From: Bacteriovoracaceae bacterium
GTDB lineage: Bacteria; Bdellovibrionota; Bacteriovoracia; Bacteriovoracales; Bacteriovoracaceae
Assembly: GCA_016784965.1 (NCBI GenBank)
Contig: JADHTQ010000041.1
Location: forward strand, 1 to 41,125
Length of the DNA stretch: 41,125 nt
Reading direction: 5' to 3'
The notes under the pieces were generated by a model. It saw nothing but the letters and a program-made list of their open reading frames with translations. It did not search any database and was not told the origin of the DNA. This document shows, one piece after another, positions 19,876-27,152 of this stretch. The translations under genes and the position numbers were made by a program. Positions within the stretch are counted from its first letter, which is position 1. Every line of letters begins with the position of its first letter.

Positions 19876-19907
19876 CATTGCGCGCAATGTCACGCTCTTT
19901 TTATAAA
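19876..19907 (+). promoter_or_regulatory. Promoter region of the YcaO operon with 14-bp palindrome
   Basis: CATTGCGCGCAATG (19876-19889) is a perfect palindrome. It overlaps a possible -35 box TTGCGC (19878-19883), which lies 17-18 bases before TTATAAA (19901-19907). The position suits a repressor operator. The region lies 130-160 bases ahead of the preferred first start codon at 20038, leaving a long leader. Confidence 0.45.
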
Positions 19908-20037: not shown

Positions 20038-20322
20038 GTGAAAAAAAATCTTTTAAACATTGGATTGTTAGTTGCTAGTTTATTGAAACTTTCATGTGCT
20101 TTTGGCAGTATAAACACAAATCAAAGTATAAATGACATTGATAGTGTTGCGGATCAGTTAGAAGAGCTTATCGCTAATGATGCTATCAGGATTCATGAGG
20201 ATGGTGCATTAGAGCTAAATTTGTCAATACTTGATGAACTAAAGTCACGAAATGCTTTAGAAGTGATATATGCTAAACCAGGATCAGAAACAACGGGTCT
20301 TGAGTGTATTCCTGTTGAATAA
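20038..20322 (+). CDS. Small exported protein or peptide precursor, first gene of the YcaO operon
   Basis: A 94-residue protein. The GTG start at 20038 is chosen because GAGGAGGA lies about six bases upstream; the same frame opens at 19933 with another hydrophobic stretch and a weaker signal. The N-terminus is a signal-like segment (LLNIGLLVASLLKLSC) with C20 as a poor lipobox cysteine. The rest is acidic with two helices (SVADQLEELIAND, LSILDELKSRNALEV) and a C-terminal GSETTGLECIPVE carrying the only other cysteine. It ends 2 bases before the solute-binding protein gene. A short, acidic, leader-like protein ending in a Ser/Thr/Cys-containing tail next to a YcaO gene could be a modified peptide precursor, but an exported structural or sensor partner is equally possible. 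Confidence 0.6.
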   Translation: MKKNLLNIGLLVASLLKLSCAFGSINTNQSINDIDSVADQLEELIANDAIRIHEDGALELNLSILDELKSRNALEVIYAKPGSETTGLECIPVE

Positions 20323-20324
20323 AG

Positions 20325-21863
20325 ATGTTCATATCTATACGATTGATTGTATTTTGCTTCATTGTGATTGGATGTTCCAAGGATGTATTGATGGTTTCAA
20401 AACTAAAAATAAGTTACCCCCATATTAATAACAAAAATAGAAACGTATCAACTTTTGATACTGCAAGAATTGTAGATTCAACTCAATCTGGAATGTTGAG
20501 GGCATTATATAGTCCATTGGTAGAGTTTAATAATCAGGGTGATATAATATCGGGTTTGGTTGATAGTTTTGTCTGGAAAGGAGGGTCACTAATATTTAAA
20601 ATCCGAAAGGGCTTAAAGGCCAGTGATGGCTCTTCTATTACTGCTTCTGATGCATATGTCTCTTTAAAAAGACTCTTATTACTTGGAAAAAACACTCATG
20701 GTAATTTAAAAAGCTTTCTGTGTCCTAACGACGAACTAAAGGATATAAAGTCCTCTTGTAGTGGACTAAAGATAAAAGATGATACGCTCATTTTGTCTCC
20801 TATACCTTCAAGGAAGTCTTTACTATTGCCCCTGCTTACAGCAACCGAGTTTGCGATTGTACCTAGTAAATCTCTTGACCTTGAAACTCTAAAAATAAAA
20901 AATAATTTTGTTACATCTGGTCCTTACTATGTTGCAAGTGATGACCTTAGAGGAAACGTACTTTTAAAGGCCAACAAAAACCATCATCACTATTCCACCA
21001 ACATTGCACAGACGATTGACTTAGTTCCCAATTTGGATCCAAAGCAGTCACTATTTGATCTACTTGAGCAGAAAAAAGTTGATGTTATGCCTACATTCAC
21101 TTGGGGAGACTTTGTTGAGCTATATAATAAATCTGTTAAAAATGAGGAGTTAACTATTCACAAAACAATGAATATTAAAATCTCGTACATACAATTTACA
21201 CAGAGGGCCCAAAAGCAGCTAAGTCAAAAACGAAGGATTGCTATAGGAAAGAAAATGAGACAGGCATACCTTTCTCACTTTAATGCAGATACTATTTCAG
21301 AAGCTGGAAAGTATTATCTTGGAGTATACGGAGAGGGAGCTTTATCATCAGATCAAACATCCAAACTAAACAAATTATTTGATACAATTAACACTGAAAA
21401 TGAAACAGGATCCGGCATTATCATGGTAACTGCTCCAACAAGGGTCGAACACTATAAAGCAATATTTCAGGAATCGCTACCTCAAATGAAGATATTGGAA
21501 ACAAGTGAGCATCATGCTTTTAAGCAATACACCAACATCAATGACATGCCGCATCTGTTTTTTGCAAATACAGACTCATCATTTAGAGAAAATGTAACAC
21601 TCTTAAGCTATATGGTTTCAATGGGTATGTTTGCAATGGATGAAAAAAAATCTAAGCAGTGGTTAGAAAACTATTTAGATACAGAAGATAAAGAAAAAAG
21701 ATTAATGAGGCTACAGACAGTGCATTTTGATATGTTGACTGCCCCCTCAGTCGTACCAATTGTTGCATCACCATATTTAGTTGTTGCTCGTAAACCTTGG
21801 AAATTAAAAATGTCTGACCAGTATGCAAGTACTCCTTTCTGGCAGATTACCAATGAGCAGTAG
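20325..21863 (+). CDS. Family-5 extracellular solute-binding lipoprotein (peptide-binding type)
   Basis: A 512-residue lipoprotein (FCFIVIGC, C17) with the SBP_bac_5 layout of oligopeptide/nickel-binding proteins. The N-terminal lobe has ALYSPLVEFNNQGDIISGLV and FKIRKGLKASDGSSITASDA (the conserved region read as 'F.lR.g.kf.dG..ita.D'). It continues with SGPYYVASDDLRGNVLLKAN and a long second lobe. The usual OppBCDF permease and ATPase genes are absent. Instead it lies 2 bases after the small protein gene and overlaps the YcaO gene by 11 bases. I infer that it delivers a ligand signal (probably a peptide) to the membrane kinase encoded downstream, not to a transporter. Confidence 0.82.
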   Translation: MFISIRLIVFCFIVIGCSKDVLMVSKLKISYPHINNKNRNVSTFDTARIVDSTQSGMLRALYSPLVEFNNQGDIISGLVDSFVWKGGSLIFKIRKGLKASDGSSITASDAYVSLKRLLLLGKNTHGNLKSFLCPNDELKDIKSSCSGLKIKDDTLILSPIPSRKSLLLPLLTATEFAIVPSKSLDLETLKIKNNFVTSGPYYVASDDLRGNVLLKANKNHHHYSTNIAQTIDLVPNLDPKQSLFDLLEQKKVDVMPTFTWGDFVELYNKSVKNEELTIHKTMNIKISYIQFTQRAQKQLSQKRRIAIGKKMRQAYLSHFNADTISEAGKYYLGVYGEGALSSDQTSKLNKLFDTINTENETGSGIIMVTAPTRVEHYKAIFQESLPQMKILETSEHHAFKQYTNINDMPHLFFANTDSSFRENVTLLSYMVSMGMFAMDEKKSKQWLENYLDTEDKEKRLMRLQTVHFDMLTAPSVVPIVASPYLVVARKPWKLKMSDQYASTPFWQITNEQ

Positions 21864-22875
21864 CACTAACATCACAGAGCTAAAAGTTTTAAACTGGTTT
21901 TTAAAAAATATCACACCATTAAACCTAAAAACTGTACATATGGAGTGGACTAAAGATTATTTACCAAAATACACTGACATGCATGTTGAAATTACTGTTA
22001 ACGGTGCCATCTATCACGGCAGAGGTACAGACAAGCAGGAAAATATTGCGTTTATAAAGGCCTCAGTAGAAGCTGTTGAGCGAGCTGTGCTTTCAAATAC
22101 AAAGGGGATAAAAAATTCAAGTGGAGTTGCTGGCCATTCACTTGACGATGAAGCAATAAAAAATGCTAAATTGGAGTTGATTGAGCGCGATCACTTTTTT
22201 TGCCATTACTTAACACAAGTACCATTTGGCAACACACTAATAAATATAGTTAATGACAGTACATTTCCTTTCAGAGATATGATAAAAAAACTCAACAAAA
22301 GAGGGATCGAAATATTTTTTAGAGAAATGGCCAAAACATCTGAAACAACTTCAGTTATATGTATTGCATCTGGCTCCTCCTATAAATATCCCTTTGGCAT
22401 TACAACAGGTCATGGGATAGCATTTAATGCTCATGATGCAATTGAGTCAGCATTCATCCAATGTGTAAGAAAGGTAGTGTCCTATTTAGATGGTGAATTG
22501 CCTGAAAAAATCTCAATAAATGAATTTTTACAAAAGTTGCAGCACTCACCTGTAGACCATATAGCATTGGGATGTAACCTTGAATATGCCAAGGAGGTAA
22601 TGCCCTTTTTTTGCGCCAAAAACTGTGATGTTGTTTTTGATGATATTCGAATGAGTGAGATAGAGTGCATCCAGCTAGATACTCAAGTCAATCCAGCATG
22701 TGAACATATTTCTTCTGCACCTCTAGTATTTTACAGAGCTTTTTCTGACCAGTTGCACGATTTGTTTTTTGGAAATTTATTAGAGGAAAACATTAATTTG
22801 AATAGATTAAAGACTTTTGCAAATAAAGATATCTCTTTTGGTGACCTATATAAAACGCCTCATCCTATGGGATAA
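21853..22875 (+). CDS. YcaO-family ATP-dependent cyclodehydratase/thioamidation-type protein
   Basis: A 340-residue YcaO domain protein. Diagnostic blocks: HGRGTDKQENIAFIKASVEA followed by VER (E73, E76, R77), SSGVAGHSLDDEAIKNAKLE followed by LIERD (E108, E111, R112, D113), and GHGIAFNAHDAIESAFIQC (E198, Q203). These match the ATP/Mg-binding glutamates of the family. The C-terminus ends KTPHPMG, which recalls the proline-rich end of peptide-modifying YcaO enzymes without matching it exactly. YcaO enzymes activate peptide amide bonds with ATP to form azolines, amidines or thioamides; E. coli YcaO instead assists RimO. No E1-like or TfuA partner is next to it. The ATG lies within the end of the upstream gene (ATGAGCAGTAG overlap), so translation is coupled. 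Confidence 0.88.
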   Translation: MSSSTNITELKVLNWFLKNITPLNLKTVHMEWTKDYLPKYTDMHVEITVNGAIYHGRGTDKQENIAFIKASVEAVERAVLSNTKGIKNSSGVAGHSLDDEAIKNAKLELIERDHFFCHYLTQVPFGNTLINIVNDSTFPFRDMIKKLNKRGIEIFFREMAKTSETTSVICIASGSSYKYPFGITTGHGIAFNAHDAIESAFIQCVRKVVSYLDGELPEKISINEFLQKLQHSPVDHIALGCNLEYAKEVMPFFCAKNCDVVFDDIRMSEIECIQLDTQVNPACEHISSAPLVFYRAFSDQLHDLFFGNLLEENINLNRLKTFANKDISFGDLYKTPHPMG

Positions 22876-22878
22876 AAA

Positions 22879-24846
22879 ATGAATAATGATTTAAATACTG
22901 TCCTAAGTAAACAGTTAAAAAATTTATTTTTTAAGATACTTATTATTCAGACCATTGTTTTGTTCGTTTTATGTTCTCTATTTATAATAGGCAACATCTT
23001 GTTCAAGAATAAAATTGCATCAATTACAACTATGTCTGTTAGACAGTCTCTTATTGTTAACGATATTAGAGAGGCCATAAATGGTGTAAAACGACTGGGA
23101 AGTTCTTCATTTGAAAGAATTTATTTTGTTGATAACAACCAGAAAACAATTTTCAAATTGCCTACAGGTACAGAGTTTATAGACAAAAACACCTCAAATC
23201 CTTTTAACTTCGTACTCTTTGCAACAATCCACAAGCCCGTATATCTATCATCAAAATTAAAAACTACCGTTGGTAACATCTATTTTGTGTATTACCGCTT
23301 TGAATTTATCATTTATGCTATTTTACTGTGGTCAATGTCTATAATCGCTTCAATAATTTTTATAAAAAAATCTAAAGAACGTTTAGAAAGCGAGTATAGA
23401 TATGGTCTGAAAGTAAAGCGAGATTCAATTTTATCAGAGATTGCAGGACAGGTTGCCCATGATATACGCAGTCCCCTTGCGGCCTTAGATATGGTAATGA
23501 AGGACATCGGAAAAATCCCTGAAACAAAGCGATTAATGATTAGAAGTGCATCAACCAGAATTCATGATATTGCAAATAATCTTTTACAAAAAAATAGAGA
23601 ACTATCCAACCAGACAAATATTACTGAGACAAAAGAAGAGCTAAGCACAGTACTGCTACCTGTTATTGTTGAAAGCATTTTAACAGAAAAAAGAATGCAG
23701 TTTAGGCATAAAATTGGAATTAATATAAACTCAAACATTAGTGAATCTTCCTATGGATTATTTACAAAACTGCAACCAAGAGAAGCCAAAAGAGTTATAT
23801 CAAATATTTTAAACAATAGCATCGAGATACTAGTTGATTCTGGTAACATTACAGTTGATCTTTTCTCTAAAGACGATAAAGAAATTGAGCTTAGAATAAA
23901 AGATGATGGTAAAGGTATTCCTCCTGAAGTTTTATCAAAATTGGCCCAAAAAGGTGAAACCCATGGCAAAAAAGACGGTAGCGGGTTAGGACTATACCAT
24001 GCAAGAACGTCTGTAAACTCTTGGGGAGGAACACTGAAAATAGATTCGATAGTAGGTATTCACACCACTATTATCATTCATTTACCCAAAGTTGAACCTC
24101 CCACATCATTTGTCCCTCAGATTACTCTTAATGCAAACTCAACCCTTGTTATTGTCGACGATGATGAGTCAATTCATCAGGTCTGGAACGAACGGTTAGA
24201 GTCTATTAACTTTAAAAACTACGGTATTAAAGTACTACATTTTTCACGCCCTGAAGATGTCGCTCTTTGGGTCAGTAAAAATGACATTCCTGACACACAA
24301 TTTCTAGTTGATTACGAATACATTTGCGATAAAAGCAATGGACTTGACCTAATTGAACAGTTGGATATAAATGGAAGTTCTTATCTGGTTACAAGCAGGT
24401 TTGAAGAAAAACATGTACAAAAGAGATGTAATAACCTTAATGTAGGTCTAATCCCCAAGGGTATGGCCGGTTTTATCCCTATGTCGATCACAAGTGATGT
24501 CCTTGAGTCTTACAGTGACAATGCTGAAAAAATAGTGACGGTCCTTCTTGATAATGATGCCCTTATTTGTACCATTTGGAAGAGTATGGCCGATGATAAA
24601 AAGATCCCACTAAATGTTTACTCCAATCCTGAAGAACTGTTACAAAGTCTATCTACCATTTCAAAAGACAGCACCTTTTACATTGACTCCAGCTTAGAAA
24701 ATGGTCTTAAAGGTGAGGATATTGCCAAAAAGCTCTTTGATAAAGGATATAAGAATCTTTATCTAGCAACTGGGTATGAACCAGAGGATTTTTTGCATTT
24801 ATCCTATATTAAAGGTGTCATTGGTAAAGAACCCCCGTGGTCTTAG
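22879..24846 (+). CDS. Hybrid sensor histidine kinase with two C-terminal receiver domains
   Basis: A 655-residue membrane kinase that starts 3 bases after the YcaO stop. Transmembrane segments lie near 20-41 and 142-162, with a ~100-residue periplasmic sensor between. The H-box is H194-DIRSPLAALD. The ATPase domain (~285-402) has N309-ILNN, G1 box DDGKGIP (342-348) and G2 box GSGLGLYHA (367-375). Receiver 1 (~422-535) has D427-D428-D429, phospho-acceptor D478 and K527. Receiver 2 (~553-652) has D558/D560, acceptor D603 and K650. No HAMP or PAS domain is obvious, and no separate DNA-binding regulator follows. The sensor region probably senses the SBP, its ligand or the exported small protein. 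Confidence 0.88.
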   Translation: MNNDLNTVLSKQLKNLFFKILIIQTIVLFVLCSLFIIGNILFKNKIASITTMSVRQSLIVNDIREAINGVKRLGSSSFERIYFVDNNQKTIFKLPTGTEFIDKNTSNPFNFVLFATIHKPVYLSSKLKTTVGNIYFVYYRFEFIIYAILLWSMSIIASIIFIKKSKERLESEYRYGLKVKRDSILSEIAGQVAHDIRSPLAALDMVMKDIGKIPETKRLMIRSASTRIHDIANNLLQKNRELSNQTNITETKEELSTVLLPVIVESILTEKRMQFRHKIGININSNISESSYGLFTKLQPREAKRVISNILNNSIEILVDSGNITVDLFSKDDKEIELRIKDDGKGIPPEVLSKLAQKGETHGKKDGSGLGLYHARTSVNSWGGTLKIDSIVGIHTTIIIHLPKVEPPTSFVPQITLNANSTLVIVDDDESIHQVWNERLESINFKNYGIKVLHFSRPEDVALWVSKNDIPDTQFLVDYEYICDKSNGLDLIEQLDINGSSYLVTSRFEEKHVQKRCNNLNVGLIPKGMAGFIPMSITSDVLESYSDNAEKIVTVLLDNDALICTIWKSMADDKKIPLNVYSNPEELLQSLSTISKDSTFYIDSSLENGLKGEDIAKKLFDKGYKNLYLATGYEPEDFLHLSYIKGVIGKEPPWS

Positions 24847-25006: not shown

Positions 25007-25678
25007 ATGGCAAAACAAATTGATCTTTTTACAAATCGTGGGCATGGGGGCAAGCGAATAAATGCTGGAAGGCCTAGGAAAGATCGGTCTGTGCAGCTGC
25101 ATGTGGCCCGTCCTGAGTTTAGTGCTAGGCATCCGCTTCATGTGGATGTGAAGCTTGTTAAAGGGCTGCCTAGTTTGCGGACAAAGGGGCGGTTTAAGAT
25201 TGTTAAGGCGGCGATTAGGAAGGCTCGTAGTAAGGGGCTTCGGGTTGTACACTTTTGTGTTCAAAGTACTCATATTCATTTGATGATTGAAAGTGGGGGG
25301 AAAAGGGAGCTTGGGGTGGGGATGCAGAGTTTTTGTACTAGCATTGCTCGGGGTTTGAATTTTGCTTTGGGGCGCAGGGGGAAGGTGTTTAGGGATAGGT
25401 ATTACTTGCATGTGCTTAAAACGCCGACAGAGGTTAGAAATGCACTTGTCTATATCTTTTTAAATTATGCAAAACATACTCGGGTTCCAAATCGATTTGA
25501 TCCATATTCAACACTTGTTGTGTTTAAAGATAAGGTTAAGTTGGGGCTTGCAAGGGTTAATACTCATTGTATGTTCCCAGATGTACAGGCACGTGCTCGA
25601 TTTAAGGATCAGTTGCATGAGTTGCTTGCTCCTCCTGATACTTGGTATTTGAAAGTGGGGTGGAAGAGAGCAAAGTAG
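25007..25678 (+). CDS. REP-associated tyrosine transposase-like protein (RAYT, Y1 HUH family)
   Basis: A 223-residue member of the IS200/REP-associated transposase family. It begins with the GHGGKRINAGRPRK segment seen in this group. It has the HUH motif STHIHLMIE (H89, H91) and RDRYYLHVLKTPTEVRNALV leading to a conserved tyrosine near 149. IS200-type HUH enzymes nick and join single-stranded hairpins. I found no flanking REP palindromes or terminal hairpins, so this may be a domesticated single copy. The gene is richer in G than its neighbours, similar to the first part of the molybdenum hydroxylase gene. Confidence 0.85.
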   Translation: MAKQIDLFTNRGHGGKRINAGRPRKDRSVQLHVARPEFSARHPLHVDVKLVKGLPSLRTKGRFKIVKAAIRKARSKGLRVVHFCVQSTHIHLMIESGGKRELGVGMQSFCTSIARGLNFALGRRGKVFRDRYYLHVLKTPTEVRNALVYIFLNYAKHTRVPNRFDPYSTLVVFKDKVKLGLARVNTHCMFPDVQARARFKDQLHELLAPPDTWYLKVGWKRAK

Positions 25679-25706: not shown

Positions 25707-27152
25707 TTACTGCTGTTTGTTTTCTTTTAAGATGTCTATTTCTTCTTTGAGGGTGGTTATTTCTTGCTTTAATTCTTTGATTGCTTCTACTAGGTAGGGG
25801 GCGACTCGGTCGTAAATTACAGAGAGGTTTTTACTGGAGGAAACAACTAGCTCGGGGGCCACGTCTTGTACTTCTTGGGCGATAAAGCCTGTCATGACTT
25901 GGTTTTTATTGTTTTTTTGGGGTTGTTTCCATTTATAGTGTACTCCTCTAAGGGCCGTGATTTTTTCTAAAGCGTTGGTGATTGTTTCGATCTCTTTTTT
26001 AAGGAGCCTATCAGAAGTAGTAGAGATGGAGGTTGTGGCAGTAATAGTGCTGGTGGACTCTATACTGCTGGCAGTTGTTGCTCCTAGAGTTGTTACACCG
26101 GCGCTTAGAGATCCTGTGGTGGTAATATTTCCTGCAAAGTTGATTGCTTGGCATTTTAGGTTTGTGGGATCTCCATCTGATGAACTTCCAAACAAAGTGC
26201 AGGGATCTAATTCATCTTCACAGGCAAAAACAAAAACACCACTTGCCTCGTCGTAAGTAACACCGGTAACTTTTTGACCAGCAGTACAGGCACTGGAGTC
26301 AACTGTTAAATTGTTTAGTGCCATTAAAACGATAGCATCTGCGATTGTCTTTTCATTTGAAGTGGCCCCATCATTGATTTTGGATACAATAAGGGCCGTT
26401 TGGGCATCACTTAAGCTTCCCCAAATCTTATCAGTTGTCGCTACATCGTTTCCATCCAGCTTCATTGAATTTGATGCCACAAGATCGATAGCATCTATAT
26501 CATTTGCCGTAAGACTGGTTCCTTTTATGCCTCCTACAACATGAAGGGGGTAGCCAGGAAGATCTTCCATTATACCAACATTGCCACCTTTATAGTGAAT
26601 GCCGCTTGCATCTTCTATCCAAAAGCCAGTGCCTGCACCTGAGACGGCACTACAAGATTCAAAGAAGTTGCCACTTAGCTTTCCTACAATCTTTATGTTT
26701 TCCCTTTTTACTTTAGCTCCAATAGGTTTGCCTTGTTTTTCAAAAACAATTTCTAAGTTTGTCTCAACAAAAGAAGGAGACCCTCCAATGGGAACAGTTC
26801 CACCTCCAAATGTCATACTCTGGATTTTCACACTATGTCGCATTTGTTCTGTAGTGTATTTTTCGGTAGTCCCCCGCATGATAGGTAGTGCGCTGGAAGT
26901 CTGATCTGGTCTATTATCATTGAAGTTTAGTATACAGTTTTCACCATTTCCTAGAAAGCCTCTGATTTCATTTAACCACGTAGTTATTTCTAAACTTTGA
27001 GAGGTGGACTTTGTGGTTTTTGACATATTAGACATGATCCGCATGGTGCCAAGTGATACTAGACCTACAACACCAGCTGCAATTGTTACTTCCATTAATG
27101 AGGAGCCAGTATTTTTTCTCAGATGATTAAACAAAAATTTGTATATATTCAT
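25707..27152 (-). CDS. Prepilin-like protein with C-terminal S74 intramolecular chaperone
   Basis: A 481-residue protein. It begins with a type IV pilin-like signal: KNTG-SSLMEVTIAAGVVGLV with cleavage after G16 and Glu at +5, followed by the hydrophobic helix. The middle part is Ser/Thr/Gly/Asp-rich and fibre-like. The C-terminal ~100 residues are a Peptidase_S74 (tail-fibre/endosialidase) chaperone: TSDRLLKKEIETITNALEKI, YKWKQP, TGFIAQEVQDVAPELVV and LVEAIKELKQEITTLKEE with a coiled-coil end. S74 domains trimerise fibres and then cleave themselves off. The combination suggests a pilin-anchored or pseudopilus-exported trimeric fibre, for example a surface adhesin. The catalytic Ser/Lys dyad of S74 is plausibly at the SDRLLKKEI region. 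Confidence 0.85.
   Translation of the reverse strand: MNIYKFLFNHLRKNTGSSLMEVTIAAGVVGLVSLGTMRIMSNMSKTTKSTSQSLEITTWLNEIRGFLGNGENCILNFNDNRPDQTSSALPIMRGTTEKYTTEQMRHSVKIQSMTFGGGTVPIGGSPSFVETNLEIVFEKQGKPIGAKVKRENIKIVGKLSGNFFESCSAVSGAGTGFWIEDASGIHYKGGNVGIMEDLPGYPLHVVGGIKGTSLTANDIDAIDLVASNSMKLDGNDVATTDKIWGSLSDAQTALIVSKINDGATSNEKTIADAIVLMALNNLTVDSSACTAGQKVTGVTYDEASGVFVFACEDELDPCTLFGSSSDGDPTNLKCQAINFAGNITTTGSLSAGVTTLGATTASSIESTSTITATTSISTTSDRLLKKEIETITNALEKITALRGVHYKWKQPQKNNKNQVMTGFIAQEVQDVAPELVVSSSKNLSVIYDRVAPYLVEAIKELKQEITTLKEEIDILKENKQQ

Follow-up and report, generated by a model that had tools for sequence, protein, structure and literature searches.

A conserved operon of YcaO, solute-binding protein and histidine kinase genes in Bdellovibrionota, with a small exported protein as candidate precursor

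What is a peptide-modifying enzyme doing between a peptide-binding lipoprotein and a membrane kinase? The question is raised by four genes on the forward strand of contig JADHTQ010000041.1, from a Bacteriovoracaceae bacterium (assembly GCA_016784965.1); the whole stretch analysed, positions 1 to 41,125, is called here the window. The first gene (20038..20322, with a GTG start after an AGGAGG Shine-Dalgarno sequence) encodes a small exported protein of 94 amino acids, a candidate precursor of the type known for ribosomally synthesised and post-translationally modified peptides (RiPPs). The second (20325..21863) encodes an OppA/MppA-like solute-binding protein (SBP) of family SBP_bac_5, and the third (21853..22875), a short and divergent YcaO enzyme of 340 amino acids, with an ATG start and the C-terminus PHPMG. 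The fourth (22879..24846) encodes a membrane histidine kinase (HK) with two receiver-like domains, H194 and an HATPase_c domain at 301-404. The open reading frames (ORFs) give junctions of +2, -11 and +3 bases, in agreement with the sequence-only reading, an earlier annotation made from the letters of this stretch. The stop of the SBP gene and the start of the YcaO gene are translationally coupled by an 11-base overlap (21853..21863), a length that is usually 22 bases in other genera. We find that this gene set is conserved, and the odds seem to us evenly balanced that the operon is a self-contained peptide-signal or peptide-sensor circuit.

Do the four genes belong together? Matches to a YcaO profile are found in 160 of 369 genomes of the phylum Bdellovibrionota and in 91 of its 182 genera, numbers that are an upper bound for the short family, since the weakest matches include E. 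coli-type YcaOs. The neighbourhoods of about 80 short YcaOs were fetched, and classed with profiles built for this work. The order SBP-YcaO-HK is present at 46 loci, 23 of them with an NtrC regulator upstream; a second order, YcaO-(pep)-SBP-HK, is present at 9 loci, and the regulator follows in 8 of them. These clusters span many genera and families of the phylum, and in 17 loci from several families the overlap between the SBP and YcaO genes is exactly 22 bases. Another 20 loci, collected once the pattern had been recorded, added about 14 more in the two orders. A collection of 84,980 species, with one genome per species, was scanned with a search motif taken from a closer alignment, the broad YcaO alignment having no stretch conserved enough: 14 loci were confirmed with one motif, most with titles naming Bdellovibrionales, Bdellovibrionaceae, Bdellovibrionia, Bdellovibrio or Oligoflexia, and three with only "proteobacterium" or "Proteobacteria"; with a scan of one motif, the operon may also occur in other phyla. 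The window YcaO alone, used as query against the same collection, gave no match. The sequence-only reading had taken the four genes as one unit, and had made the co-occurrence of their homologues its check; the SBP-YcaO-kinase order recurs in dozens of genera and is kept across Bdellovibrionota. That the conserved gene system is real is nearly certain.

The source genome itself holds related loci: four short YcaOs are retrieved by Pfam search and five by profile search, and the operon type is present up to four times. Locus L007, on contig C108, repeats the whole operon in unchanged order as a sister copy, with identities of 45% for the SBP, 49% for the YcaO and 58% for the kinase. Locus L006, on C10, keeps the order and has one extra gene between YcaO and kinase. 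At L144 (C108, 86000-101500), a 542-amino-acid SBP-like frame overlaps a very divergent YcaO, and a related kinase is transcribed divergently; this SBP is assigned by position, Pfam having found no family. The last, L005 on C20, has a different arrangement, called here type III.

Which kind of YcaO is this? The window protein passes the Pfam threshold narrowly (PF02624, 2.4e-7, 30.9 bits against a cut-off of 25.7), and phmmer matches it at 4.1e-7 to MJ1094, its nearest solved relative by sequence. The AlphaFold2 model, with a predicted local distance difference test (pLDDT) of 90.8, retrieves with Foldseek MJ1094 (6pe3, 8e-11), the Methanopyrus YcaO, LynD, TruD and McbD: the 39 best matches are all YcaO enzymes. 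The catalytic residues E73, E76, R77, E108, E111 and R112 are retained in the window copy and, together with G91, in 81-82 of 82 members of the short family. A histidine stands fourth from the C-terminus in 66 of the 82; the PHPMG of the window resembles the PxPxP of azoline-forming cyclodehydratases, but is not the same. An E. coli-type enzyme, by which the sequence-only reading proposed to be judged wrong, is ruled out both by length, 340 against about 570-750 amino acids, and by the tree: between the window YcaO and nine E. coli-type YcaOs of the same bacterial family, counting only the full-length ones (566-754 amino acids), lies a branch 1.53 changes per column long, with a support of 100. 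A Pfam search found no E. coli-type YcaO in the source genome.

The substrate may be the product of the first gene, a role that the sequence-only reading overlooked. In the window, this protein starts with the signal peptide VKKNLLNIGLLVASLLKLSCAFG and ends with the tail ...SETTGLECIPVE; it is 35% identical to its L007 equivalent. Directly 5' of the SBP gene of nearly every cluster lies such a small frame, with a signal peptide and typically a cysteine near its end. Signal peptides, assigned by inspection plus a simple rule, are present in 51 of 56 clusters against 124 of 528 background ORFs (p 6e-24), and a cysteine is present within the last 20 residues of 41 of 51 precursors against 67 of 272 signal-peptide proteins (p 6e-14); the second comparison is the fairer of the two, because the background ORFs include spurious frames.

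The motif [ST]-[IV]-C is common near the C-terminus. Tails of the first set are ...AKRGGICIEV (L040), ...GEGTVCI (L043), ...TTICVGASGITK (L135), ...SSICFKPK (L127), ...DSSICY (L111), ...KTGAICD (L136), ...TDTCRCAR (L006), ...GGGASCG (L116), ...SPSCWTEPI (L131) and TTICVG; the second set of loci has the same kinds of tail (SICVDPK-like, TTICVGASGG, TSICVVPDSK, VICVDPVK, PSCWTAPY, PTCWGH). The ratio of non-synonymous to synonymous substitutions, dN/dS, is 0.24 (L040/L085) and 0.05 (L088/L089) in the measurable close pairs: the small gene is therefore translated and constrained by purifying selection. A short ORF beside the enzyme, an N-terminal part for recognition or export and a modifiable residue in a C-terminal core are features of RiPP precursors, and we consider it likely that the small protein is the substrate of the YcaO enzyme.

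What would the enzyme do to the cysteine? The extra gene of L006 encodes a SagB family peptide dehydrogenase, a homologue of McbC (TIGR03605, 97.4 bits against a cut-off of 78.4). SagB-like genes with weaker matches lie inside the SBP-HK operon of L170 and divergent from the precursor in L094 and L097; when positions are compared by hand, 12 of the 38 SagB-like matches of the phylum are no more than about 10 kb away from a short YcaO. No SagB gene is present in the window operon. Enzymes of the SagB/McbC type oxidise the azolines made by YcaO enzymes to azoles in the pathways of thiazole/oxazole-modified microcins (TOMMs). The association of SagB genes with short YcaOs therefore favours azoline or azole chemistry on the cysteine over the formation of a thioamide or an amidine. 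Thioamide formation was weighed on account of MJ1094, the nearest solved relative; the thioamidation partner TfuA is absent from the genome.

Two loci outside the two orders, L050 (5365-9439) and L051 (8000-11757), join a short YcaO and a SagB-like dehydrogenase to a glycosyltransferase and a precursor ending in FTTLTATN[SC]SSYCD; this class B looks like a separate azole-peptide family.

The receptor candidate is the second gene product. The window SBP matches Pfam SBP_bac_5 (PF00496) at 7.6e-15, with 55.3 bits against a cut-off of 32.4, and has the lipobox VIGC at its N-terminus, so that "family-5 lipoprotein", the earlier description, is correct. Its AlphaFold2 model (pLDDT 85.6) is closest with Foldseek to MppA (4toz, 5e-25), and also matches OppA, AppA, NikA, CntA, AapF and the pheromone receptor PrgZ; a profile search retrieves OppA by sequence. 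The claim that no permease accompanies it holds as well: none is found in the operon, in the neighbouring ORFs or in the ten larger flanking genes scanned. Of three close pairs compared, two have an SBP that is much better conserved than their YcaO (L043/L087, 80% against 50%; L088/L089, 87% against 63%); in L040/L085 it is not (77% against 82%).

The window kinase has an HATPase_c domain (Pfam, 9.7e-19) and is 58% identical to that of L007; H194 and D195 are invariant in the A7 alignment. The term "hybrid" stands by motif: each of two receiver-like stretches has an acidic pair, an Asp, a Thr or Ser and a Lys, and hybrid models of NCBIfam reach into both, while Pfam Response_reg made no call on them. 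The regulator of the clusters is of the NtrC type, with REC, sigma-54 AAA and Fis helix-turn-helix domains. In 24 of 56 clusters, a -24/-12 sigma-54 site with a score of 10 or more out of 12 lies ahead of the first gene, whereas only 58 of 935 other genes have one (6%; p 2e-13); examples are TGGCACACCGATTGCT in L085, TGGCACGCTGGTTGCT in L089 and TGGCACCTTGTTTGCT in L130 and L131. Such sites, and an NtrC regulator within the operon, suggest that the operon may regulate itself through sigma-54. For the response regulator of the window operon, the genome offers many NtrC candidates. About 150 bases upstream of the first gene, a perfect 14-base palindrome, CATTGCGCGCAATG (19876..19889), was weighed as a weak candidate for a regulator site, and set aside since it is missing from the sister operon L007.

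The sequence-only reading stands as to the unity of the four genes and, within the described RiPP clusters that could be searched, as to the absence of their combination. Its proposal, that the cell would make or sense a modified peptide which the SBP captures and the kinase relays, agrees with the model that we favour. Besides the precursor, it missed the NtrC regulator with its sigma-54 promoters, the SagB genes found in sister clusters, and four related systems at other places in the genome.

It is natural to assemble these pieces in the following way. The small gene would yield a precursor that carries a Sec signal peptide and, near its C-terminus, a cysteine. The short YcaO enzyme, with ATP, would activate the backbone amide beside this cysteine (Ser or Thr in a few homologues), and form a thiazoline or a related ring; in sister clusters, the SagB-type enzyme would oxidise the ring to a thiazole. 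After Sec export and a cut by signal peptidase, a C-terminal fragment, or the whole small protein, would stay in the periplasm or diffuse out. The OppA/MppA-like lipoprotein, having no ABC permease, would bind the peptide as a receptor, and the loaded SBP would switch the kinase, from which the phosphate would pass to the NtrC-type regulator, in many relatives a product of the same operon. The regulator would drive sigma-54 transcription of the operon, and probably of other genes. That the SBP and the kinase sense the product of the small protein is, in our view, somewhat better than an even proposition.

Several observations weigh against this circuit. The window operon has neither a response regulator gene nor a clear sigma-54 site, and many NtrC homologues lie elsewhere in the source genome. 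No known YcaO partner is present in that genome: TfuA gives no PF07812 match, and the ocin-ThiF or E1-like protein, no TIGR03603 match. The glutamate of the third motif, kept in 78 of 82 short YcaOs, is replaced by Gln203 in the window copy and its sister, and the window enzyme may therefore be slower or altered. The precursors of L139, L138, L108, L045 and L126 have no terminal cysteine, several having Ser or Thr there, and in L049 and L107 a cysteine cluster lies in mid-protein. Unlike typical strain-specific pheromones, the cysteine motif is not hypervariable: it is kept between related genera. Finally, two precursor-like small genes (L146, 5239-5439; L147, 1252-1467) have lipoprotein rather than ordinary signal peptides, which suggests a membrane-anchored product and is easier to reconcile with an internal sensor than with a signal that diffuses.

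An internal sensor is indeed the alternative that survives best, although we hold it to be unlikely. The modified small protein would be a resident of the periplasm and not a pheromone: like CpxP, or as a metal- or redox-binding ligand, it would sit on the SBP or kinase until dislodged or altered by a cue from outside, for instance a metal, an oxidant or peptides of the prey. Lipoprotein precursors, others of up to 170 amino acids and a tail motif shared between genera agree with such a role, the SBP fold also includes the metal-chelate binders NikA and CntA, and up to four systems per genome would suit different cues. However, peptides are the ligands that suit an OppA/MppA-like SBP best, many of the precursors have just 48-64 amino acids, with little beyond signal peptide and tail, and feedback through sigma-54 fits autoinduction.

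Could the product be a weapon, a secreted bioactive RiPP serving as a toxin, an anti-competitor or a prey-directed agent, with the SBP and the kinase kept for autoinduction or for sensing immunity? YcaO and SagB are the toolkit of azole peptides, and the organisms come from a phylum of predators. Yet the clusters have no recurrent gene for a transporter, a leader protease or immunity, the tail has a single short cysteine motif and not a core rich in Cys, Ser and Thr, and one SBP and one kinase are always there, a heavy apparatus for regulation alone: we consider this explanation improbable.

We give little credit to the idea that the enzyme acts on another protein of the cell, while the small protein, the SBP and the kinase form an ordinary peptide-sensing unit that is merely co-regulated with it. 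Against it stand the overlap of YcaO and SBP genes across families, the presence of a precursor with a C-terminal cysteine in most clusters, the association with SagB, and the partner GNAT of the type III clade, which likewise ends in a conserved QFC; this is so even though large proteins can be YcaO targets, as in the thioamidation of McrA, no solved relative is closer in sequence than MJ1094, and the C-terminal cysteine could serve a different purpose. Ordinary nutrient sensing by an SBP and a kinase was ranked lower because the precursor and the YcaO are conserved alongside them. As for chance adjacency or an artefact of a fragmented genome, nothing speaks for it beyond the doubt that attaches to a single genome, and about 70 loci with two fixed orders and conserved overlaps refute it and make its probability negligible.

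The type III loci (among them L005, L037, L038, L044, L105, L124, L129 and L133) belong to one clade of 14 YcaOs, and have no SBP. In their complete neighbourhoods, a GNAT-type acetyltransferase is accompanied by a kinase and an OmpR-type regulator, and often also by a B12 radical SAM protein; in 8 cases the GNAT protein has a QFC-like tail, again a cysteine near the C-terminus of the YcaO's neighbour. Type III is possibly another YcaO system, whose substrate would be the GNAT protein's own C-terminus.

Other neighbours are of separate interest. Directly downstream of the YcaO-kinase locus of L109 (2466-3574) lie a multinuclear non-heme iron-dependent oxidative enzyme (MNIO; MbnB_TglH_ChrH) and a Cys-rich, bufferin-like precursor with a signal peptide. 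Adjoining the cluster of L048 (11911-12736) are regularly spaced direct repeats, with frames repeating WESVSQSE and SDWLTDSHLLF, probably a CRISPR array. In the window, the operon is immediately followed by a homologue of Y1-type (IS200-like/RAYT) transposases, below the Pfam cut-off (25007-25678). The protein encoded at 25707-27152 has Peptidase_S74 (endosialidase chaperone) as its C-terminal domain, a feature of phage tail-fibre-like or surface fibre proteins.

How does the system compare with described ones? It shares with TOMM azoline pathways (microcin B17 McbBCD, SagBCD, LynD/TruD) the YcaO fold, the ATP-site residues, a C-terminal substrate region containing Cys, Ser or Thr, and, in sister clusters, the SagB/McbC-type dehydrogenase. 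It differs from them in having no E1-like/ocin-ThiF partner and no ABC exporter, in the YcaO C-terminus, HP[IMLV][GA] in place of PxPxP, and in a precursor that has a Sec signal peptide and is paired with its own SBP and kinase. MJ1094, which thioamidates a glycine of McrA, is the nearest solved relative by fold too and has the same stand-alone size; the differences are the lack of TfuA in the source genome and the predicted substrate, here an exported peptide of small size. In MNIO-modified bufferins and related Sec-exported RiPPs, as here, the precursor is short and has a Sec signal peptide and a modified cysteine, the last being predicted in our case; in contrast, our enzyme is a YcaO and not an MNIO (DUF692), it has no DUF2063 partner, and it stands with an SBP-kinase module in place of metal defence genes. 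Few RiPP precursors have a Sec signal peptide, and bufferins are the only ones for which it has been shown experimentally (PMC12452194).

Activation of neighbouring kinases by SBPs is known (PMC11113362): AgtS and AruS of Pseudomonas aeruginosa have SBP genes that adjoin the kinase gene, with the SBP as receptor, a role predicted here. Those systems sense nutrients, whereas our operon itself encodes the candidate precursor of a ligand, together with the enzyme that would modify it. Autoinducing peptide two-component systems (agr, ComX-type) bring together precursor, modifying enzyme, receptor and kinase, with feedback on their own operon, which is predicted here as well, and the pheromone SBPs PrgZ and AapF are among the structural matches of the window SBP. 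Our system differs from agr and ComX in belonging to Gram-negative predators, and in its YcaO chemistry, separate SBP receptor, NtrC/sigma-54 output and Sec export. In the open-licence literature we found neither a YcaO-SBP-kinase system nor a modified-peptide signal in Bdellovibrionota, and PMC8067016 lists RiPP clusters of this phylum in general only. The gene combination, which the sequence-only reading could not place among described RiPP clusters, was not found among those searchable either, and as far as can be searched the system is undescribed.

We advance tentatively, and at somewhat less than even confidence, a broader proposal: the clusters would define a new class of RiPPs, peptides made by YcaO, exported by Sec and cyclised near the C-terminus, for which a permease-less, OppA-like receptor drives a kinase and a sigma-54 regulator, a peptide-signalling language private to the predatory Bdellovibrionota, in which one cell would have as many as four channels side by side. 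If this is true, YcaO chemistry would be joined to the export of a RiPP by Sec and to an SBP and kinase that receive the product, a trio not met in the literature searched, in a YcaO family without known partner proteins. At four to five genes per cluster, the pathway is compact enough to be rebuilt in a laboratory strain, and a phylum of mostly predatory bacteria would then have a self-made signal that can be tested.

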